Of a stretch of 33,501 bases of DNA, positions 1,806 to 32,700 are shown piece by piece (within the stretch, counting starts at the first letter, position 1; each line of letters starts with the position of its first letter). The DNA is from a virus. Position numbers and translations under genes: made by a program. The notes under the pieces were generated by a model. It had not been told where the DNA came from. It saw only the letters and a list, made by a program, of their open reading frames with translations, and did not search any database. The stretch is taken from IMG/VR virus record IMGVR_UViG_3300034012_001335, positions 1 through 33,501 of that record. One strand, written 5' to 3'.

Positions 1806-3292
1806 TCGTTGACCAATACGGAAACCTGACGCAGAGCAACCTTTACCGCAGGCCATCACGGCACGCGAACCTAGGCGGTGGAGAGCGGCCTAGCGAGTCG
1901 CGGAACCTTCGTGACCTGCATAAGATCGTCACAAAATACGACCGCCAGACGCTATCCAGCGCATCGCGGACGCTGTATCTCAACTCCCCGCTAATGGTCG
2001 GCGCACTCAACCAGATCGGCATTTATGCGGTCGGCAATGCATGGCATCCGGTCTATAAAGGCACGGACAAGGAAGGCGGTGACGCGATTAAGGACTGGTT
2101 GAAAGACGAGTGGTATCCGATTTGCAACATCGCCGGGGACATCGCGGATTTTACCTCTGACCTCTACGTTGACTCGATCAGCATGGATCGTGACGGGGAG
2201 GTTTTCGAGTATTTCACCGCCTCGCCAAGCGGCTATCCGCAGATTCAGCAAATCCCCTCGCACCGCATTGACAGCGGCGGCATGGCGGATGGGATTCTAA
2301 GGGATGGCACGTATTCCGGATACGAGCTTTACGATGGTATCGTGTATTTCCCGAATACATCCATCCCCGTCGCCTACTGCCTTTGCGACGTTGACGGGAA
2401 GTTCCAGCAATACATCGAGAAGCGGTTTATTATGCACGTTTTCGACCGCTACTGGCCGGAACAACGCAGGGGATTACCGCTTTTCTACCCATCGCTTAAC
2501 AACCTCCGTGACATCATGCAGAGCGAGGAATGGGAGCGCATGAACCTGCTTTCCATGTCCAGCCTCAACTACACGGTTGAGAATCTGTCAGGTGGCCCCG
2601 ATCCCGAAGACCCGACATATGTGCCGGGCGATTGCGGGAAGCTCGCTGCCGAGTATCTCCAAGGCGGGCGCATCATGTATGCGAAGGCTGGAGCAGGCGA
2701 GAAGATCACCCAGCATCAGAACTTCCGCCCCGGCAATCCGTGGCATGAATTTTACGACATGCAAGCCCGCCAGTGCCTTGTCGGTGCTTGTCTACCTGCC
2801 ACGCTCTGGAAGCCATCTGGACAAGGAACCGCGCAGCGCGAGGACATCGGCAAAGCATGCCGCTTTGTCGAAGACCGCCAATCCACCCTCGCCAAAATCG
2901 CCAAGTGGAGAGTCACCAAGGCCGTAGCATGGGCGATGGAGAACGACCGCGTTCCGAAGATTCAGCAATGGTGGAACTGGAGCTTCACCACCCCGCCGAA
3001 GCTCACGATTGACGACGGACGAAGCCTCAAAGAGAAGATGGCTCTTTACGACAAGGGTCTGATTAACGCCACGCAAATCCTTGGCGAACTATCTCTTGAC
3101 CTTGGCGAGACTCTTAAAGAACGCGCCACGGAAGAGGCAAAACGCCTTGTTGCCATCCGCGAAGCTAACGAGGAATATGAGGTGGAAATCGACCCACGCG
3201 GCGTGCGCCTCATCACCGCAAACGAGCAACCGCCGAAAGAGGATCAATACGATACGAACGAAGAAACCACCCAACAGGAGGAAGAACCATGA
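1802..3292 (+). CDS. Phage portal protein (lambda gpB-like)
   Basis: A 496-residue portal protein, a normal length for the lambda-type family. It would form the dodecameric ring through which DNA enters the head and onto which the tail docks. Family-like parts are SPLMVGALNQIGIYAVGN near residue 60, the conserved mid-region with HVFDRYWPEQRRGLPLFYPS, and the C-terminal helical segment GQGTAQREDIGKACRFVEDRQ. The charged, Glu/Gln-rich tail is typical. It starts inside the gpW-like gene (ATGA) and overlaps the protease start by 4 bases. No truncation is seen. Confidence 0.88.
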   Translation: MIVDQYGNLTQSNLYRRPSRHANLGGGERPSESRNLRDLHKIVTKYDRQTLSSASRTLYLNSPLMVGALNQIGIYAVGNAWHPVYKGTDKEGGDAIKDWLKDEWYPICNIAGDIADFTSDLYVDSISMDRDGEVFEYFTASPSGYPQIQQIPSHRIDSGGMADGILRDGTYSGYELYDGIVYFPNTSIPVAYCLCDVDGKFQQYIEKRFIMHVFDRYWPEQRRGLPLFYPSLNNLRDIMQSEEWERMNLLSMSSLNYTVENLSGGPDPEDPTYVPGDCGKLAAEYLQGGRIMYAKAGAGEKITQHQNFRPGNPWHEFYDMQARQCLVGACLPATLWKPSGQGTAQREDIGKACRFVEDRQSTLAKIAKWRVTKAVAWAMENDRVPKIQQWWNWSFTTPPKLTIDDGRSLKEKMALYDKGLINATQILGELSLDLGETLKERATEEAKRLVAIREANEEYEVEIDPRGVRLITANEQPPKEDQYDTNEETTQQEEEP

Positions 3293-4329
3293 TTACAATC
3301 GAAAACAAAGCAGGTAAGGTGAAGCTGAATGAAGCCGTCACGCAAGACAGCATCAAACGCATGATTGACGAAATCGGGCGCATGTTCGGAGCGAAAGCCG
3401 TTGCCGAGGGCGCGGACTTTGGTGAGATCATGAACTGCGCGGAAAACGCCGTTGACGTTCTCGACATCGAAATTAACTCCCCAGGCGGAAGCGTATTCGA
3501 CGGATACACCATCTATCAGGAAATCAAATCCCTCCGCGACCGTGGCGTGGCTGTCAACGCGACCATCACCGGAATGGCCGCGAGCATGGCCAGCGTGATT
3601 GCAATGGCGGCGGACAAAATTTCCATCGTCAAGCATGGCCGCATGATGATCCATGACGCATCCAGCGCGGCACAAGGCAACGCGGAAAGCCTCCGTAAAA
3701 CCGCCGAACTACTCGACGGCATCAGCGATGACATCGCCGGAATCTATGCCGAACGCACCGGAATTGATAAGGAGGAAATCCGCGAAATGATGAAGCGCGA
3801 AACATGGATGACCGCCCGCGAAAGCATCGCTAACGGCTTCGTGGACGAGGTGCTAGGTGAGCAATTTGACTTTCGCGAAGAAAAGGCGCAATCTAACGCC
3901 ATGAGCTTTTTAAATCGCCTCACCAATCCATCGTCCGAAGAGTCCATCGAGCGCATCTCCGCACTGGAAGCCGACCTCACCGCGCAAGCCGCAGAGTTTC
4001 AATCCAAGCTCGACAAGGCCGAAGCCGCTCTCCAAGAGGCCGCAACCATCCAAGCCGAAAACATCGAACTCCGCGCCAAGGTCGAACTTGTTCCGACCCT
4101 TGAGGCGAAGATCACAGAACTCGAAAACGCCGCGAAGATCACCGCCGAAAAGATCGACACCGCCGCCGCACAAAAGCTGGCAAGCATGGGACACGGCGAG
4201 CCGCTTGACCTTGGCGCGAAGGCTCCGACAGAAACCAGCGCAAAGGAACTCAGCCTTGTGGCGTTCAACGAACTCACCCCTTCTCAACGCATGGACTTCA
4301 TTAAGTCCGGCGGCAAAATCTCCAACTAA
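3289..4329 (+). CDS. ClpP-like prohead protease with scaffold-like C terminus
   Basis: A 346-residue head maturation protease. The ClpP/S49 fold is clear: INSPGGSVFDGY (residues 62-73), nucleophile Ser99 in GMAASMAS, His122 in MMIHDAS, and probable Asp186 in ANGFVDEVL. Residues of about 200-300 form a long Ala/Glu/Lys-rich coiled coil (SALEADLTAQAAEFQSKLDK onward), like the scaffold part of lambda C/Nu3 proteins. One polypeptide therefore probably supplies protease and scaffold, and then cleaves itself during head maturation. The start has a strong Shine-Dalgarno (AGGAGG at about 3278), unusual among its neighbours. No internal start for a separate scaffold could be proven. Confidence 0.88.
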   Translation: MITIENKAGKVKLNEAVTQDSIKRMIDEIGRMFGAKAVAEGADFGEIMNCAENAVDVLDIEINSPGGSVFDGYTIYQEIKSLRDRGVAVNATITGMAASMASVIAMAADKISIVKHGRMMIHDASSAAQGNAESLRKTAELLDGISDDIAGIYAERTGIDKEEIREMMKRETWMTARESIANGFVDEVLGEQFDFREEKAQSNAMSFLNRLTNPSSEESIERISALEADLTAQAAEFQSKLDKAEAALQEAATIQAENIELRAKVELVPTLEAKITELENAAKITAEKIDTAAAQKLASMGHGEPLDLGAKAPTETSAKELSLVAFNELTPSQRMDFIKSGGKISN

Positions 4330-5978: not shown

Positions 5979-6485
5979 GTGAACGAAATCCCCGACAACA
6001 TCACCGACTACCTCGCAAGTGAAAAACTCGACGGCGTGCGCGGAATCTGGACGGGATCAGAGTTCATCACCCGCCACGGGAATATCCTCAACGTCCCAGC
6101 ATGGTTCAAGGTCGGCATGCCATCCGTTCGCCTTGATGGCGAGATTTACATGGGACTCGGAACATTCAACCAACTGCAATCGGAGATGCAGCGCAAGGGC
6201 GGCGAATGGGCAGGTATCCGATTCATGATCTTCGACGCAGCAATCCTCCGCAAGACGACTATTGAACGTATTGCATTCCTTGAAGCTCTTTCTTTGCCAT
6301 CGCATTGCACGGTAATCAGCCACGCACCGCTCGACAACCACGCCGAGCTTGACGAGATGGAAACTGACATCGTGGCACGCGGAGGTGAGGGCATCTGCCT
6401 ACGTCACAAGGACGAGTTCTACCGCCCTAACAACTTCATCAAGGTGAAAAGATTGTTTCCCGATCTTGAGCGGTGGCAAGGCTAG
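5979..6485 (+). CDS. Minimal ATP-dependent DNA ligase (nucleotidyltransferase domain only)
   Basis: A 168-residue protein with all the main nucleotidyltransferase motifs. Motif I is EKLDGVRG with adenylated Lys16; motif III is LDGEIY with Glu55; motif IIIa is FMIFDAA at about 82-88; motif IV is GEGICLR with Glu137; motif V is FIKVKR with Lys155/Lys157. It would seal nicks using ATP. There is no room for the usual OB-fold domain, so it is smaller than most phage ligases. It is oddly placed between head-tail connector genes and has its own A-tract promoter, so it looks like an added moron gene. The start is GTG, chosen because the next Met is far inside the fold. RNA ligase is a less likely alternative. 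Confidence 0.82.
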   Translation: MNEIPDNITDYLASEKLDGVRGIWTGSEFITRHGNILNVPAWFKVGMPSVRLDGEIYMGLGTFNQLQSEMQRKGGEWAGIRFMIFDAAILRKTTIERIAFLEALSLPSHCTVISHAPLDNHAELDEMETDIVARGGEGICLRHKDEFYRPNNFIKVKRLFPDLERWQG

Positions 6486-25358: not shown

Positions 25359-25643
25359 ATGAACACACAACAAACGCCGGAGACGGATGATCACCACGCC
25401 CGTTTTCCGATGGGCGGATTCACCTTGGACTTTGCCCGCTGGCTTGAACGCGAGCGGGACGAAGCACGCAAGAATGCCGAGACATCCAAGGCTAACAAGC
25501 GCGTGCTAAAGGATGAAAATAAACGGTTACGAAGCCGCGTGGAGAAGTTGGAATGTCAACTAGCCGCAGCCCAAGACGAGCTAATCCGCCTCACCGACAC
25601 GAAAAGGCCGAGCAGGGAGACGAGTAATAAGCTGGAGATATGA
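25359..25643 (+). CDS. Coiled-coil hypothetical protein
   Basis: A 94-residue protein. Its N-terminal part (GGFTLDFARWLERERDEARK) passes into a Lys/Arg/Glu heptad-like helix (NKRLRSRVEKLECQLAAAQD). It resembles small phage coiled-coil proteins with the DF.R.LERE motif. ATGA overlap with the Mom-like gene, so it might help or regulate that gene. Confidence 0.55.
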   Translation: MNTQQTPETDDHHARFPMGGFTLDFARWLERERDEARKNAETSKANKRVLKDENKRLRSRVEKLECQLAAAQDELIRLTDTKRPSRETSNKLEI

Positions 25644-26320
25644 AAGCAAACATTCAGATTCTATCTATGCCCACAAAGGAAGCAGAGCCGTGGCTTTTAC
25701 TCAGGCATTATGCTAAGCGTAAATGCCCAATCTCATTCGCTTTCGGAGCATATCGAGAATCTGAATTGATTGGCGTTATCACATACGGCACTCCCGCAAG
25801 CTCACCACTTAGGGAGGGCATAGCCGGGAAAGAATGGGCATCGCATGTCCTAGAACTGAATCGGCTATGCTGTGAAAACTCCCCAAACTTAGCCAGTATG
25901 ATCGTAGGGCGTTCGCTAAGGATGCTTCCCAAGCCTTCCGTAGTGGTAAGCTATGCAGACACAGCACAAGGCCATGTTGGATACATTTACCAAGCTACGA
26001 ACTTTATTTACACCGGACTAAGCGCAAAGCGAACGGACTGGAAAATTAAAGGCCGTGAGCATCTTCATGGGGCAACCATAGCCGACGAAAGCCGAGGGCA
26101 ATCCAACCGTGCGGAATGGATGCGCGAAAAATACGGAGATGATTTCTACCTTGGCGAGCGAGCAAGAAAGCACCGTTACGTTTATTTATGCGGTAACAAG
26201 CAACAGCAATCGGCCATGCGTAACTCGTTGCGATACCAGCAAGAAGCATACCCAAAAGGAGAAAGTCGACGATATGACGCTTCGTGCCAAATCCAAACAC
26301 AGACAGCTTTTTCCATTTAA
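25640..26320 (+). CDS. Mom-like DNA adenine-modification acyltransferase
   Basis: A 226-residue protein, close in size to Mu Mom (about 231). The pattern HYAKRKCPISFAFGAYRESE, LIGVITYGTPASS, VLELNRLCC and SYADTAQGHVGYIYQATNF is that of Mom-family proteins. These GNAT-like enzymes convert adenine in phage DNA to a methylcarbamoyl-type modified base, protecting it from restriction. Two methyltransferase genes follow. No Com-like zinc finger regulator is seen upstream, although Mu requires one. The C terminus (GESRRYDASCQIQTQTAF) is polar. I infer the chemistry from the family. Confidence 0.72.
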   Translation: MKANIQILSMPTKEAEPWLLLRHYAKRKCPISFAFGAYRESELIGVITYGTPASSPLREGIAGKEWASHVLELNRLCCENSPNLASMIVGRSLRMLPKPSVVVSYADTAQGHVGYIYQATNFIYTGLSAKRTDWKIKGREHLHGATIADESRGQSNRAEWMREKYGDDFYLGERARKHRYVYLCGNKQQQSAMRNSLRYQQEAYPKGESRRYDASCQIQTQTAFSI

Positions 26321-26390: not shown

Positions 26391-26486
26391 ATGAAAACAT
26401 ACCCACACAATGCGCCCCTGTGCGTCCGCGAGCCTCTGGAATACCGGAGGGGATCACTCGTTGATGCTCAGGGGCGAACCATTTGA
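26391..26486 (+). pseudogene. Frameshifted 5' copy of the methyltransferase gene at 27290
   Basis: ATG at 26391 opens 31 codons (MKTYPHNAPLCVREPLEYR onward) that repeat the start of the protein encoded at 27290. One extra base in the GGAGGGG run and one in GAACCATTT shift the frame, ending it at 26484-26486. It stands directly before the first methyltransferase and has probably lost its own product, or survives as a leader peptide. Confidence 0.65.
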
Positions 26487-26496
26487 AAGATATGGA
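26391..26496 (+). repeat. Direct repeat copy 1 (about 105 bp)
   Basis: It matches 27290-27393 with a few substitutions and two single-base insertions; shared blocks include CCACACAATGCGCCCCTG and GATCACTCGTTGATGCTCAG. The end TTGAAAGATATGGA is common to both, and the first methyltransferase starts within it. Confidence 0.9.
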
Positions 26497-27277
26497 AAAA
26501 GAAAACAGAGAACGGCAACTGAAACATGAAATCTACAATGATCATTTTCAGAACTACAAGCGGCACGCAATCCCCAAGGCTCAACTGGTGATCGCTGACA
26601 TCCCCTACAACATCGGAAAGAACGCCTATGGCTCAAATCCGGCATGGTATGAGGGAGGCGACAGCGCGAACGGTGAAAGCAAGCTGGCGAATAGCGAGTT
26701 CTTCGACACGGACAAAGACTTCAGAATCTCCGAGTTCCTGCACTTCTGCTCGAAGATGCTCAAGCCAGAGAACAAGAAGGAAACCGGAACGGCTCCCTGC
26801 ATGGTGGTCTTCTGTGCCTTCGACCAGCAAATGGAAATCATCGAAAAGGCTAAGGAACACGGGCTGATGAACTACATCAATCTGGTCTTCACGAAAAACT
26901 TCTCTGCCCAAGTGCTGAAAGCGAATATGCGAGTCGTGGGCAACTGCGAATACGGACTGATCCTCTACCGCGACAAGCTGCCGAAGTTCAACAACGGCGG
27001 AAAGATGGTCTTCAATGCCATGGAATGGCCTAGGGACAACGAAAGCGAGAAGATCCACCCCACACAGAAGCCGGTAAAGCTCCTGCAACGGCTCATAACG
27101 CTCTTCACTGACCCCGGAGAAGTGGTTATTGATCCATGCGCCGGAAGCGGCTCAACGATCATCGCTGCGTCACGGTGCAACCGCACAGGCTACGGATTCG
27201 AGATCAAGAAGGACTTCCACAAGGCCGCGTGCGATTGGTTGAAACGCGAAAAGTCACAAATGACACTTAAACTATAG
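26492..27277 (+). CDS. DNA adenine methyltransferase 1 (DIPY type)
   Basis: A 261-residue DNA methyltransferase, probably N6-adenine. Motif IV is DIPY at 36-39 (VIADIPYNIGKNAYGSN) in place of the usual DPPY, and the AdoMet motif is VIDPCAGSGSTIIAAS near the C terminus after HPTQKPVKLLQ. Such proteins with KNAYGSNP and NFSAQVLKANMR are common in Firmicutes phages. The gene uses CTG leucine codons more than its neighbours, a sign of transfer. TTG 26483 is another possible start. It lies between two copies of a 105-bp repeat. Confidence 0.82.
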   Translation: MEKENRERQLKHEIYNDHFQNYKRHAIPKAQLVIADIPYNIGKNAYGSNPAWYEGGDSANGESKLANSEFFDTDKDFRISEFLHFCSKMLKPENKKETGTAPCMVVFCAFDQQMEIIEKAKEHGLMNYINLVFTKNFSAQVLKANMRVVGNCEYGLILYRDKLPKFNNGGKMVFNAMEWPRDNESEKIHPTQKPVKLLQRLITLFTDPGEVVIDPCAGSGSTIIAASRCNRTGYGFEIKKDFHKAACDWLKREKSQMTLKL

Positions 27278-27289
27278 CAAAAACACACT

Positions 27290-27393
27290 ATGAAACCACA
27301 CCCACACAATGCGCCCCTGCGCGTCCGCGAGCCTCTGGAATACCGGGGGGATCACTCGTTGATGCTCAGGGGCGCGCCTTTGAAAGATATGGA
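27290..27393 (+). repeat. Direct repeat copy 2 (about 105 bp)
   Basis: Intact copy of the repeat at 26391-26496. Here it encodes the first 35 residues of methyltransferase 2 in one open frame, so this is probably the original copy. Confidence 0.9.
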
Positions 27394-28078
27394 GCCATTT
27401 ATCTTAGAATCCGACACGCCGGACAAAACCGCGCCAATCTCACCACCGCGATACGGGACGCTCGACCTACGCTTGGCGGACTGCATGGATGTGATGCGGG
27501 AGTTTCCAGACGGGCATTTTGACTTGGCGATTGTAGATCCACCCTACGGCATCGGCGTGAACTCAATGAACATGGGAAGCAGGAAAACCGTCCGCCCCGA
27601 CAAGAAAAACTGGGATGATGAAATCCCCACACCGGAATACTTCGCGGAGCTTCGTCGTGTGGCGAAGAAACAAATCGTCTGGGGCGGCAACTACTTCCCG
27701 CTGCCGCCGTCGCGTGGCTGGTGCGTGTGGGACAAGGGCGAGTCAATGTATGGCCGCAGCTTCGCCGAAGTGGAACTCGCGTGGATGTCCATGGATGCCT
27801 CGGCGCGAATCTTCAAAATGTCGCCGAATCAACTGGATCGGTTCCACCCCACGCAAAAGCCCGTGAAGCTCTATGAATGGCTGCTGGGAAGCTACGCAAA
27901 GCCAGGTGAAAGGATACTGGACACGCACCTAGGCTCGGGTAGCTCAGCTATCGCCTGTCACTACGCCGGAATGCACCTAACAGCCTGCGAGATTGATCCT
28001 GACTACTTCCACGCGGCAAAAGCCCGCATCGAGCGGGAGACGATGCAGAAAGAACTTTTCTCACTACCGACACCATGA
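27290..28078 (+). CDS. DNA methyltransferase 2 (DPPY type)
   Basis: A 262-residue N6-adenine or N4-cytosine methyltransferase of the beta-type order. Motif IV DPPYGIG is at 83-89, followed by FHPTQKPVKLYEWLL and the AdoMet motif DTHLGSGSSAIA at about 210-221. Its first 35 residues come from the repeat and lie outside the catalytic core. Together with methyltransferase 1 and the Mom-like enzyme it makes a DNA-modification island. ATGA overlap with the next small gene. Recognition sequence unknown. Confidence 0.85.
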   Translation: MKPHPHNAPLRVREPLEYRGDHSLMLRGAPLKDMEPFILESDTPDKTAPISPPRYGTLDLRLADCMDVMREFPDGHFDLAIVDPPYGIGVNSMNMGSRKTVRPDKKNWDDEIPTPEYFAELRRVAKKQIVWGGNYFPLPPSRGWCVWDKGESMYGRSFAEVELAWMSMDASARIFKMSPNQLDRFHPTQKPVKLYEWLLGSYAKPGERILDTHLGSGSSAIACHYAGMHLTACEIDPDYFHAAKARIERETMQKELFSLPTP

Positions 28079-28362: not shown

Positions 28363-29712
28363 ATGGAACTACGCGATTACCAACAGGACTTATTTTCACG
28401 CATCCAAGGCGCAATTCGGCGCGGCGTGCGGAGTTCGCTTGTTGTTAGCCCTACGGGATCAGGGAAGACGGCTACGTTTTGCTATATCGCTTCGCGTGCC
28501 GAACGAGCAGGCAGCCCAACCCTGATTCTTGCGCACCGCCGCGAATTGATTACCCAAACATCCGGCACGCTAGGAAAGTTCCAAGTCCGACACGGTATCA
28601 TTCAACCTGGGATTACTCCTGACCCCGGCAAAATCGTCCAACTAGGCATGGTGCAAACCATCGCACGGCGACTAGGGCGCATGGCGATTCCTAAGCTGAT
28701 TATCGTGGACGAAGCTCATCATGCCGCTGCTGGGCAGTACCGCGCAATCATTAAGGCGTTCCCAAGCGCGGCAGTTGTAGGTTTTACTGCGACACCGCTC
28801 AGGCTCGACGGGAAAGGACTAGGCGATTATTTCCATGAGATTATTCCCGGCCCCGCAGTTGAGTGGCTCATGGAAAACGGCCATCTTTGCCGCCCGCGAT
28901 ACTTCGCTCCGCCCATGATAGCTAATATGAAAGGCATAAAGAAGCGCGGTGGTGATTATGCAAGCGACCAGCTCGCGGACGCGATGACATCCGCCAGGAT
29001 CACAGGTGACGCTGTAAAGCACTATCAAAAGCTAACACCAAACACCCGCGCCGTGGCATTTTGCGTAAATATCCGACATGCAGAGCATGTTTGCAGCATG
29101 TTCAACGCAGCGGGCATTCCATCGGGTATCATTAAGGGCGATATGACGGCTGACGACAGGCGTAAGATCGTCACTGACTTGGCTGATGGTCGGATACGTG
29201 TCATGGTGAGTGTGGATGTTATCTCAGAGGGCTTTGACTTGCCAAGTGTCGAGACGGCAATCTTGATGCGCCCCACGCAATCACTCGGACTTTACCTACA
29301 GCAAATCGGGCGTATTCTTCGGCCATCGCCGGGCAAGACCGCAACGATACTCGATCACGCTGGAAATATCGCACGGCATGGACTCGCCGAGGATGATCGG
29401 GAATGGAGCCTGGAGGGGCAGGACAAGAAGTCTAAAAAAACCGAAGCTGGAACGCATAAGCAATGCGGATCATGCTACGCGATGTTTTTACGCCTACTTC
29501 CTTCCTGCCCCGAATGCGGATGGACACCACCTCCGCCAGAACCTAAGGAGTTTGAGCATACCGACGAAGAGTTGGTTGAAATCCGCCGCGCTCCTATCCA
29601 GATGCTTTTGAAGGACGTTAAGACGCGAAAGGATTTGAAGATTATTCAAAAGGCCAAAGGCTACAAACCCGGCTGGACATATTATATGGCAAAGGAGCTA
29701 CAACTCAAATGA
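28363..29712 (+). CDS. SF2 DEAD/DEAH-box helicase
   Basis: A 449-residue superfamily 2 helicase. Motifs are in order: Walker A PTGSGKT (30-36), DEAH (116-119, in IIVDEAHH), TATP (142-145), and motif VI QQIGRILRPSPGK near 310. A C-terminal CGSC..CPECGW four-cysteine cluster, probably zinc-binding, is at about 367-388. Phage proteins of this type unwind replication or recombination intermediates. It is the first gene of a replication operon with the VRR-NUC and primase/helicase genes and overlaps the former by 4 bases. Confidence 0.88.
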   Translation: MELRDYQQDLFSRIQGAIRRGVRSSLVVSPTGSGKTATFCYIASRAERAGSPTLILAHRRELITQTSGTLGKFQVRHGIIQPGITPDPGKIVQLGMVQTIARRLGRMAIPKLIIVDEAHHAAAGQYRAIIKAFPSAAVVGFTATPLRLDGKGLGDYFHEIIPGPAVEWLMENGHLCRPRYFAPPMIANMKGIKKRGGDYASDQLADAMTSARITGDAVKHYQKLTPNTRAVAFCVNIRHAEHVCSMFNAAGIPSGIIKGDMTADDRRKIVTDLADGRIRVMVSVDVISEGFDLPSVETAILMRPTQSLGLYLQQIGRILRPSPGKTATILDHAGNIARHGLAEDDREWSLEGQDKKSKKTEAGTHKQCGSCYAMFLRLLPSCPECGWTPPPPEPKEFEHTDEELVEIRRAPIQMLLKDVKTRKDLKIIQKAKGYKPGWTYYMAKELQLK

Positions 29713-30059
29713 CCGAATCACAAATACAGCAAGAAATACGAATCAAGCTCAACCATGCTGACACGCGGGCATGGCGCAACAATATTGCCAAGCTCAAGGT
29801 GAGAGGCCGCTGGATTGACTACGGAATCCCGGGCAAGGGGGGGAGTGATTTGATCGGATTACACACAATCACCATCCGCCCCGATCATGTCGGAAAACGT
29901 GTGGCTGTATTTCTTGCGGTCGAATGCAAATCACCAACAGGCAAAGCGACTCCAGAGCAGACTAATTTCATACGATACATCCAAGAGGCCGGAGGAATTG
30001 CCGGAGTGGCACGAAGCGCGGATGAGGCAACCAATTTAATCAAAGACTATGAGCGATAA
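29709..30059 (+). CDS. VRR-NUC domain nuclease
   Basis: A 116-residue stand-alone VRR-NUC (PD-(D/E)XK) nuclease. Asp47 lies in GGSDLIG, Glu72-x-Lys74 in AVECKSPTG, Gln84 in TPEQTNFI, and the typical ending GGIAGVARS is present. These often accompany phage SF2 helicases and cut branched or flapped DNA. ATGA overlap with the helicase and an 11-base overlap with the next gene show coupled expression. Confidence 0.87.
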   Translation: MTESQIQQEIRIKLNHADTRAWRNNIAKLKVRGRWIDYGIPGKGGSDLIGLHTITIRPDHVGKRVAVFLAVECKSPTGKATPEQTNFIRYIQEAGGIAGVARSADEATNLIKDYER

Positions 30060-32034
30060 CGACATGGGCATACATGCCCCATTTGCAGACAAGGCAGATC
30101 ACGACGGCCAAGTTCTTTTAGGGCTTTGGATGGATTGTGGCATCAAGAAATCCCTTGCTTTCCCTATTGAGGATTTACCAACCGCTAACTTGCAGGAATT
30201 GGGCAAAATCATCAAGTCCGCCTTGGATGCTGGATTGGTTGGGTTTCCTTTCATCGCCGAGCAATATCCGAACCATGTCCCGCAATTAGCACAATGCGCC
30301 ACCGCTTTAAGCTCAATTCTCGCTATGGGCAAAAAGCCCACCGCTAAGAAGATCATCGCCGACCTGACCCGCTATCGGTTGCTTTACGATGAGCAAATGC
30401 GCCGATGGCAGGAAACCGAACCCGCTGGTGATGTTTTTTCGGACGAGCCAGCCCCGCCAAAAAACCGCATTGAAGGACTTCCATTCCGATTACTGGGCAT
30501 GGATGACGGCGTGATGCGATACATGCCCGACAACGGGCAGCATATTGTGAGCATGACCGCAGGCGGGCATACAAAGCTCAATCTGCTTCAACTTGCGCCA
30601 CTTCAATCATGGGCGGAAATTTTCCCGTCAAAGCAGGGGTGCGATTGGGACGCGGCTTGTAACTGCATTATCCAAATGAGCCAATCGCTTCCGCGCTTTG
30701 ACCCTCGCTCAATTCGTGGCCGTGGCTGCTGGATTGACGGTAATGACGTAATCTATCACGCTGGCAACAAACTCGCCGTAAATGGGCAAATCCGGCCAAT
30801 CACGGCATATTCCAGCCCTAGCATTTACGAGGCTGGATTAGCCATCGCTATTGACACCGCCGACTCCGCTAAAAACATCGAATCCGCACGCTTGCTCGAG
30901 CTTTGTGACGCGCTTTCTTGGGATCAACCTCTTTATGGGAAGCTCATAGCCGGCTGGATGGCACTCGCTCCTATCTGCGGGGCGATGCAATGGAGGCCGC
31001 ACGTATGGGTGACTGGTGCAGCCGGATCAGGTAAGACATGGATCATGGGGAATATCATCAACCCGATTGTGGGCAAATCCGCCGTTTTCGTTCAAGGGAA
31101 CACCTCTGAGGCGGGCATACGCGGACAACTAGGTTCTGACGCGCTGCCTGTGCTTTTCGATGAGGCAGAGGCGGAAAACCTACGCAGCATAACACGCATG
31201 GAATCAGTCATGGAGCTTGCCAGGCAGGCATCAACAGAATCAGGGGCCGGAATCGTAAAAGGAACCCAGAACGGCGGCAGCATCACCTACATGGTGCGAA
31301 GCATGTTTTGTTTTTCCTCAATCGGCGTGGCAGCGGTCAAAAAAGCCGACACATCCCGTATTTCAGTTTTAGCTCTACGCAAGGCAGATAACCAAGATCA
31401 ATTTAACCTAGTCAAATCCATATGGCGCGAAACTACGGCAAATCCTGAGTATTGCGCTAGAATCCGCGCCCGCGCAGTAAAAAACGCCAAGACTACCCGC
31501 AAAAACGCTGACACATTTTCCCAATGTGCGGTCGATTTTACGGGCGACAAACGGAGCGCAGACCAGATCGGCACTCTACTGGCGGGTGCTTATTCCCTCG
31601 CATCGTCTCGCCCGATTACATCCGAAGCGGCCACGGAATGGCTTCAGAAGCAGGATTGGAGCGGATTCAAGGTGGACGCCATCGACAGCGACGAAAACCA
31701 ATGTCTTTCTCACCTCATGTCGGCAATAATTCGGGTTGAACGCAACGGATCGGCTGAAAATATCTCGATAGATGAGGCGATTACACGCTGCCGAGCAGGG
31801 GTGTCATGCGAGCCGGATAATCTCGCATTGCTCCGAATTGGCATAAAAGTGGATCAGGAATGCGTTTTTGTGGCCAACTCCCACCAGGGACTAGATCGCG
31901 TTTTCCGCGAAACAGCATGGTCAGGAGGGAAATGGAGAGGTCAAATGTTGCGAATTTCTGGCGCAGAATCCGCATCACACGCCGTCAGATTCGGAAAAAA
32001 CATCCGTCAGAGGGCTGTTTCTGTGCCAATTTAA
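30049..32034 (+). CDS. Replicative primase/helicase-type P-loop ATPase
   Basis: A 661-residue protein. Walker A is GAAGSGKT (323-330) and Walker B-like LPVLFDEAEAE has Asp371/Glu372, in the central ATPase. The N-terminal 200 residues may contain a degenerate primase-like or DNA-binding region. The region VKGTQNGGSITYMVRSMFCF through SRISVLALR is like DUF927/phage replication ATPases. It probably unwinds or loads at the iteron region starting at its own end. A start at ATG 30064 is possible. No classical zinc primase motif was found, so primase activity is unproven. Confidence 0.68.
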   Translation: MSDNDMGIHAPFADKADHDGQVLLGLWMDCGIKKSLAFPIEDLPTANLQELGKIIKSALDAGLVGFPFIAEQYPNHVPQLAQCATALSSILAMGKKPTAKKIIADLTRYRLLYDEQMRRWQETEPAGDVFSDEPAPPKNRIEGLPFRLLGMDDGVMRYMPDNGQHIVSMTAGGHTKLNLLQLAPLQSWAEIFPSKQGCDWDAACNCIIQMSQSLPRFDPRSIRGRGCWIDGNDVIYHAGNKLAVNGQIRPITAYSSPSIYEAGLAIAIDTADSAKNIESARLLELCDALSWDQPLYGKLIAGWMALAPICGAMQWRPHVWVTGAAGSGKTWIMGNIINPIVGKSAVFVQGNTSEAGIRGQLGSDALPVLFDEAEAENLRSITRMESVMELARQASTESGAGIVKGTQNGGSITYMVRSMFCFSSIGVAAVKKADTSRISVLALRKADNQDQFNLVKSIWRETTANPEYCARIRARAVKNAKTTRKNADTFSQCAVDFTGDKRSADQIGTLLAGAYSLASSRPITSEAATEWLQKQDWSGFKVDAIDSDENQCLSHLMSAIIRVERNGSAENISIDEAITRCRAGVSCEPDNLALLRIGIKVDQECVFVANSHQGLDRVFRETAWSGGKWRGQMLRISGAESASHAVRFGKNIRQRAVSVPI

Positions 32035-32318
32035 GCGTTTTGTGCCAGCTTTGTGCCAGCTTTGTGCCACTTAATCACCTTACAATCAACAACTTACAAA
32101 AATTGGCTACGGTGGCACACTTTTTTCGATATCCCCTATTATATACCCTTATGTATTTACCCCTCTCTAGTACAGTACCTATATGTATAAATGTGTGTCA
32201 GTGTAGCCAAAAACCCGCTAGCCCTTATCCGGCAAGGGCTACAGCTGGCACACCTCTGGCACACTTTTTCTGTTGTAGTGTGCCAATCCTTATTCTACAA
32301 GGGATTCAAAGTGTGCCA
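32022..32318. other. Candidate replication origin with TGTGCCA iterons
   Basis: TGTGCCA occurs at 32022, 32041, 32052, 32063, 32279 and 32312; its complement TGGCACA occurs at 32113, 32246 and 32257. Three direct copies and two inverted copies are spaced exactly 11 bp, one helical turn. Between the groups lies an AT-rich stretch (about 32128-32195), suitable for melting. A cruciform-capable repeat TAGCCCTT/AAGGGCTA is at 32219-32241. The stretch 32035-32364 holds no convincing gene and borders the replication ATPase. Iteron binding would be expected from that ATPase or a nearby regulator. Confidence 0.72.
32219..32241. repeat. Inverted repeat TAGCCCTT/AAGGGCTA in origin region
   Basis: A perfect 8-bp inverted repeat around a 7-base loop, 5 bases before the pair of inverted iterons. 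No T-run follows; it may form a cruciform during initiation. Confidence 0.6.
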
Positions 32319-32364
32319 CCCTCCACCTAAACTGAGAAATGCAGAGATTTACAAACCATAAACC

Positions 32365-32700
32365 ATGACCCACGCACAAAAACTAAAACGAATACACGAG
32401 CTGATAGAATTGCCGGATGTTATTGAACTATGGAAACTATCAGCCGAAGTCGCCGCATACGAAAAGAAGACTTACCCAATACCGCTGCCGACGCTTTCCG
32501 AGGCAATGCGATTCCGCCGCGAGCAGATGGGCGAGACACGCGTCGAGATAGCCGAACGAGCCGGACTGGATGTCATTGTATGGAGCTTACTAGAAGACGA
32601 TGAGGTAGAGGATTTAACCATATCAGAAGCTCGCAAACTCTTCACCATCGGTATTCCAGCCGAGGTGCTATTGTCTCAAGACAACCAATCGAAACCATGA
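32365..32700 (+). CDS. HTH-type small regulator
   Basis: A 111-residue protein. The C-terminal half, LSEAMRFRREQMGETRVEIAERAGLD, has the pattern of an XRE/Cro-type helix-turn-helix, followed by EDLTISEARKLFTIG. The N-terminal half is a charged helix. It stands next to the iteron region and might bind it or control early genes. C/A-rich leader (ACAAACCATAAACC), no Shine-Dalgarno. Confidence 0.6.
   Translation: MTHAQKLKRIHELIELPDVIELWKLSAEVAAYEKKTYPIPLPTLSEAMRFRREQMGETRVEIAERAGLDVIVWSLLEDDEVEDLTISEARKLFTIGIPAEVLLSQDNQSKP

Follow-up and report, generated by a model that had tools for sequence, protein, structure and literature searches.

A candidate iteron-type replication origin next to a putative initiator-helicase gene in a tailed phage and its relatives

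Gene content and repeat array of the window

The sequence analyzed here, which we refer to as the window, is a 33,501-bp IMG/VR contig classed as virus. Its host is probably a verrucomicrobium. It encodes a terminase fragment, a lambda-type portal, a Clp-type protease, a major head protein and a tape measure, along with RecT-like and YqaJ proteins and a RuvC-like resolvase that precede a DEAD-type helicase, a VRR-NUC nuclease and the gene at 30049. No separate primase was recognized among the window genes scanned. The features considered in this study are the following.

28363-29712 (+): ResIII/DEAD-type helicase gene of the replication module (PF04851, E 1e-24; phrog_16, E 1e-104)
29709-30059 (+): VRR-NUC nuclease gene of the replication module (PF08774, E 1e-9)
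30049-32034 (+): putative initiator helicase gene, 661 aa (phrog_35358 'DNA primase', E 8e-112)
31771-32031 (+): C-terminal domain of the helicase, residues ~575-661, proposed iteron reader (confidently modeled; swapped along with the iteron word)
32022-32069 (+): left arm with four TGTGCCA copies at 32022, 32041, 32052 and 32063
32103-32132 and 32181-32210 (no strand): imperfect inverted repeat of 30 nt, 77% complementary, with 48 nt between its arms
32113-32119 (-): single TGTGCCA copy, an exact match, at the left edge of the core
32119-32199 (no strand): core and putative unwinding element, the least stable 80 bp by nearest-neighbor energies
32194-32200 (+): degenerate tenth copy, TGTGTCA, mirror partner of the copy at 32113
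32219-32226 and 32234-32241 (no strand): 8-bp inverted repeat TAGCCCTT / AAGGGCTA, terminator-like on the - strand
32246-32318 (both strands): right arm with TGTGCCA on the - strand at 32246 and 32257 (11 bp apart) and on the + strand at 32279 and 32312
32288-32303 (-): quasi-palindrome CCCTTGTAGAATAAGG inside the right arm, also present at the putative origins of close relatives and beside other arrays
32365-32700 (+): small gene with a weak match to phage transcriptional regulators (phrog_1373, E 3e-6)

Two further observations concern other parts of the window. At 25640-26320 and 26483-28078, two N6/N4 DNA methylase genes have a Mom-like DNA modification protein (phrog_1384, E 6e-51) in their vicinity, and the structural gene block includes a short protein at 5979-6485 that resembles ATP-dependent DNA ligases (PF01068, E 3e-4, which falls short of the curated cut-off).

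The 7-mer TGTGCCA occurs 13 times in the whole window against 4.5 expected, and nine of these copies are located at 32022-32318. As the initial annotation had reported, all nine are exact and they occupy both strands (six + and three -); its estimate that chance would supply far less than one copy also held, with ~0.04 expected within the 297 bp. When 31990-32370 was shuffled 2000 times at the dinucleotide level, no 7-mer exceeded 4 copies, compared to the 9 observed; elsewhere in the record, the best 400-bp window contains 5 copies of any 7-mer. The 11-bp spacing within the groups (32041/32052/32063 and 32246/32257) was confirmed as exact. The copy at 32022 overlaps the last codons of the 30049 gene, while the remaining copies lie 3' of it, and the array is thus placed directly 3' of the initiator-helicase gene, as are the origins of SaPI/PICI elements.

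Between the arms at 32022-32119 and 32246-32318, the core at 32119-32199 is the least stable 80-bp stretch of the entire 33.5 kb, and this arrangement of two iteron sets around a weak segment resembles that of PICI. The 30-nt inverted repeat pairs the copy at 32113 with the copy at 32194 around the core and lends the latter a two-fold symmetry. Both the AT-rich core and the 8-bp cruciform repeat previously noted between the repeat groups are real, but the placement of the latter has to be narrowed to the gap between the core and the right arm, and its terminator-like character on the - strand is matched by a similar chance expectation. The hairpin in the gap beside the core is significant in the window (p 0.004); since it was found in just 8 of 54 gaps elsewhere, it was rejected as a conserved feature of the family.

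Promoter and terminator scans returned no more than chance, no RNA element was matched in Rfam, and the DNA of the origin region showed no similarity to named phages. The GC-skew analysis proposed along with the initial annotation gave no origin signal in the window, where the minimum falls at 32499, or in two complete phages (phi1422 and S-H1), in which no minimum coincides with the array.

The 30049 protein and its predicted fold

The 661-aa product of the 30049 gene aligns to positions 408-941 of the 968-position phrog_35358 profile, which correspond to the helicase and the C-terminal part, and comprises an AAA/SF3-like core (residues ~145-570) followed by the C-terminal domain. The Zn-ribbon/Toprim primase half is absent, with no Toprim match detected. 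Its nearest relatives (L002-L008) are 804-856 aa long, several of them with weak Toprim matches N-terminally, and relatives overall are mostly of 840-905 aa, with Toprim or Zn-ribbon matches in several; a clear Zn-ribbon is seen in the more distant ones.

The 30049 protein had no match in Pfam, to either the DUF927 or the VapE/D5-type (Primase_Cterm/D5) models, and sequence-profile searches with it reached no PDB structure. An AlphaFold2 (AF2) model built from 115 relatives had a mean pLDDT of 86.9, with values >90 through most of residues 140-661. In a Foldseek comparison of this predicted fold against the PDB, SCCmec Cch (5dgk) ranked first (E 2.7e-9) and SaPI PriRep1 with dsDNA next; a viral PrimPol, NrS-1, poxvirus E5 and the SaPI5 primase-helicase were matched as well (7pds and 7ola being among the SaPI-type matches). 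The predicted fold of the 30049 protein is therefore closest to a helicase group that includes self-loading replication initiators. When modeled in isolation and considered against the winged-helix initiator domain of P4 alpha, the C-terminal domain showed a mixed helix/hairpin fold (pLDDT 93.5) that matched no solved structure in the PDB and no recognized DNA-binding fold; in a viral structure library, two long phage proteins were its only good matches.

Arrays in related phages

Relatives of the helicase were gathered from viral contigs and genomes into a non-redundant set of 234, and an array was scored where at least six copies of one TGNNNNN 7-mer lay within 2 kb after the stop codon. Seventy-three of the 234 relatives carried such an array, in 62 cases at most 120 bp from the stop. 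Six or more copies of a single 7-mer were present in the first 450 bp downstream of the stop at 44 of the 152 loci with enough sequence, compared to none of 834 control windows inside gene bodies. The word began with TGT in 61 of the 73 arrays, usually as TGT plus four variable bases, and differed by lineage (TGTAACG, TGTTACG, TGTTACC, TGTCACG, TGTTGCG, TGTCAGC, TGTTTCA, TGTCCAC, TGTGCCA and others). In the layout that recurs among these loci, a core of median length ~104 bp is bordered by inward-facing copies, two of which are often spaced 8-9 bp apart, and a cluster at 10-12 bp spacing follows; near the core, 83 copies face rightward and 13 leftward on the left side, against 23 and 57, respectively, on the right. 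The arms in the window are arranged unlike this common layout. An array of another kind was seen at L059, where ~20 copies of a 9-bp tandem unit (TTGCAGCGN) lie downstream of the primase, ~1177-1348 bp after the stop.

At 46 of 58 loci, the 80-bp segment of lowest stability in the locus fell inside the array, where length alone would predict 2.6 such loci. Relatives without arrays frequently have a weak region directly downstream of the gene as well (93 of 155), and the evidence for unwinding is therefore partly a property of any intergenic gap at this position. By the above criterion, 161 of the 234 relatives have no array, and none was found anywhere in three contigs of array-less relatives (L016, L017, L020) or in the complete Bordetella phage PBb001; these relatives may rely on repeats that are shorter or degenerate, or on a different origin.

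Arrays were also located in two complete genomes, in each case as the sole such array of the genome. Bdellovibrio phage phi1422 carries 11 copies of TGTTACC right after its family gene (gp23), and Acinetobacter phage Acjo_20 (L347) has nine copies of TGTAACA at ~3061-3460, upstream of its primase gene.

Because the relatives bear equivalent arrays at the same place but with other words, and none inside gene bodies, an origin is the favored reading of the array. The suggestion of the initial annotation that an iteron origin lies beside the replication ATPase gene is thus supported by these arrays, as well as by the weak core and the predicted fold. Two other functions were weighed against the same data. 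First, the repeats could be an operator array for the HTH-like protein encoded at 32365 and serve transcription regulation only. The start of this gene is 47 bp from the last repeat, its product resembles phage regulators, and an 11-bp spacing of sites would suit cooperative binding. However, this explanation is weakened by a search, run without a positive control, in which relatives of the 32365 gene were found in 0 of 16 related records, the array-bearing contigs L002, L003, L007 and L008 included. The constant neighbor of the array among relatives is instead the helicase gene, upstream of which the array lies in Acjo_20, and the natural swap described below affects the word and the helicase C-terminal domain jointly. 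The 32365 protein is, on this sequence evidence, probably not the reader of the repeats, and we consider an operator function unlikely.

Second, the array could be a packaging site (a pac/cos region) bound by the small terminase, given that a fragment of a terminase large-subunit gene (phrog_15) opens the record, that the array is ~1.2 kb from the record end and that some of the arrays found with the quasi-palindrome are near terminase genes. In phi1422, however, the array is at 14 kb, directly after the primase, and the terminase is at 21.5 kb (~7 kb apart), and many lineages have an array of this layout behind the helicase gene. Of the functions weighed here, packaging appears to us the most improbable.

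The probable reader of the repeats

A natural experiment is provided by two groups of relatives, L010/L011 and L013-L015, whose helicases are 94-98% identical while their C-terminal domains share 34-38% identity. The iteron word is TGTTGCG in the former and TGTTACG in the latter; their right arms align copy by copy, and a G/A difference at one position recurs in nearly every copy. As read from these alignments, this is a natural exchange of the C-terminal domain accompanied by a concerted one-base change of the iterons, and it points to the last ~85 helicase residues as the iteron reader.

Across 60 loci, a partial Mantel test of iteron distance against C-terminal distance, given helicase distance, gave r 0.18 (p 0.0035), whereas the reverse partial test gave 0.095 (p 0.11). 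The effect is small, and in the simple test iteron distance is as well correlated with the helicase blocks as with the C-terminal block. At the level of residues, covariation between the C-terminal domain and iteron positions yielded no usable code, with helicase columns scoring as high. The coupling of iteron and C-terminal domain thus appears clear in the swap and modest statistically, and the C-terminal domain is likely the iteron reader.

It could also be argued that the region is an origin but that its iterons are read by a host protein or another phage protein, such as DnaA or a RepA-type initiator, rather than by the 30049 helicase. The lack of a recognized DNA-binding fold in the isolated C-terminal domain and the modest covariation statistics would agree with another reader. 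On the other hand, the two DnaA boxes (TTWTNCACA) of the window are not near the array, and a DnaA-dependent origin of the oriC type was rejected on this ground. The variation of the word between close relatives argues against a fixed host protein, the L010/L011 versus L013-L015 swap implicates the C-terminal domain, and among helicases of similar fold origin binding is performed by the helicase itself (PMC7581432). A reader other than the 30049 helicase is, in our estimation, slightly less probable even than the operator function.

Proposed mechanism and comparison with known systems

Taken together, we infer that 32022-32318 is very probably the replication origin of a tailed phage and is read by the C-terminal domain of the 30049 helicase. 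According to this model, copies of the helicase would bind TGTGCCA in both arms through the C-terminal domain (residues ~575-661) and form rings that flank the weak core (32119-32199). The rings would then melt the core, load themselves and start replication forks in both directions. The iteron sequence and the C-terminal domain would evolve as a matched pair, such that related phages share one plan but use different words. DNA binding, ring assembly, unwinding and origin activity are functions that we infer for the 30049 helicase and its array by analogy with the systems discussed below. As a more general proposal, to which we give somewhat better than even chances, this family of tailed-phage helicases would combine a near-fixed TGT with four free last bases and a swappable matched reader, and the origin 'address' would be changed by the concerted replacement of all copies.

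Within the family itself, the closest parallel is phi1422 gp23, which likewise has an array right after its gene; it differs in its word, TGTTACC, and in having an intact Toprim half. We found no description of the phi1422 downstream region as an origin. The alpha protein of satellite phage P4 unites primase, helicase and initiator in one protein and acts at a repeat-based origin (ori/crr). The likeness to it is drawn from these general properties, and unlike P4 alpha, the window protein is devoid of the primase half. P4 alpha and its cognate ori are also mentioned in work on PICI (PMC6092414).

The origins of PICI always consist of two iteron sets that flank an AT-rich region 3' of rep, and a PICI rep-ori plasmid replicates (PMC6092414). 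The window shares with SaPI/PICI elements the order of an initiator-helicase gene followed by two sets of short iterons around an AT-rich segment (PMC6092414, PMC7581432), words that differ between elements, a helicase C-terminal domain as the reader (proposed here) and a similar predicted fold (7pds, 7ola). The carrier, however, is not a satellite but a tailed phage that itself encodes head, portal and terminase proteins; its helicase belongs to phrog_35358 and matches neither the DUF927 nor the VapE/D5-type Pfam models; and the iterons mostly have a common TGT start across the family. In SCCmec, a putative origin with three 5-nt repeats lies downstream of Cch and Cch2, in which origin binding is assigned to the C-terminal domain (PMC7581432). 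Cch is the best fold match (5dgk) and short direct repeats follow the gene in both cases, but there are only three 5-nt repeats in SCCmec and no homology is detectable in profile searches. The new aspects are the type of carrier (tailed phages from many phyla), the TGT-anchored variable iterons found family-wide and the natural swap of a domain together with its iteron.

The arrays supply candidate origins for a large group of tailed phages, for which, as far as our literature search found, none had previously been described. They also offer naturally occurring pairs of matched initiators and iterons, which could serve to derive a DNA recognition code, and suggest that an origin plan regarded as a hallmark of PICI is apparently common to ordinary phages. 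A further question is why phages keep altering the address of the origin, whether for incompatibility with co-infecting relatives or as an escape from parasites that hijack origins.

A quasi-palindrome associated with the arrays

The right arm also contains a second element. The quasi-palindrome CCCTTRTAGAATAAGG, with the extended consensus AAACCCTTATAGAATAAGGCTTT, occurs in the window at 32288-32303 (-) and at 32223-32238, and also at L453, L383, L447, L409 and others. Versions of CCCTTGTAGAATAAGG are present at the putative origins of the relatives most similar to the window (L002, L003, L007 and L008); over all loci, its density is 0.13 per kb near the stop codon versus 0.001 per kb elsewhere, and it was absent from the three bacterial genomes checked. 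A scan of viral contigs with the quasi-palindrome returned at least 119 matches, compared to 33 for the reversed sequence. Arrays of at least six copies were present in 21 of 112 windows centered on a match versus 29 of 2858 control windows (Fisher p 5e-18), and in 0 of 30 windows around the reversed pattern. The arrays found with the quasi-palindrome differ in sequence, and two of them lie directly 3' of other replication helicases, one a PrimPol-VapE protein (L453), the other a DUF927 protein that carries a Cch HTH domain (L383). The consensus AAACCCTTATAGAATAAGGCTTT could act either as a bidirectional terminator or as an element of the origin.

Arrays with seven copies of TAGATAC were noted in L395 (at 1437) and L389 (at 4908), in each case beside a 362-aa gene, which in L395 encodes a tyrosine integrase. 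Such arrays could represent arm sites of an integrase instead of origins.
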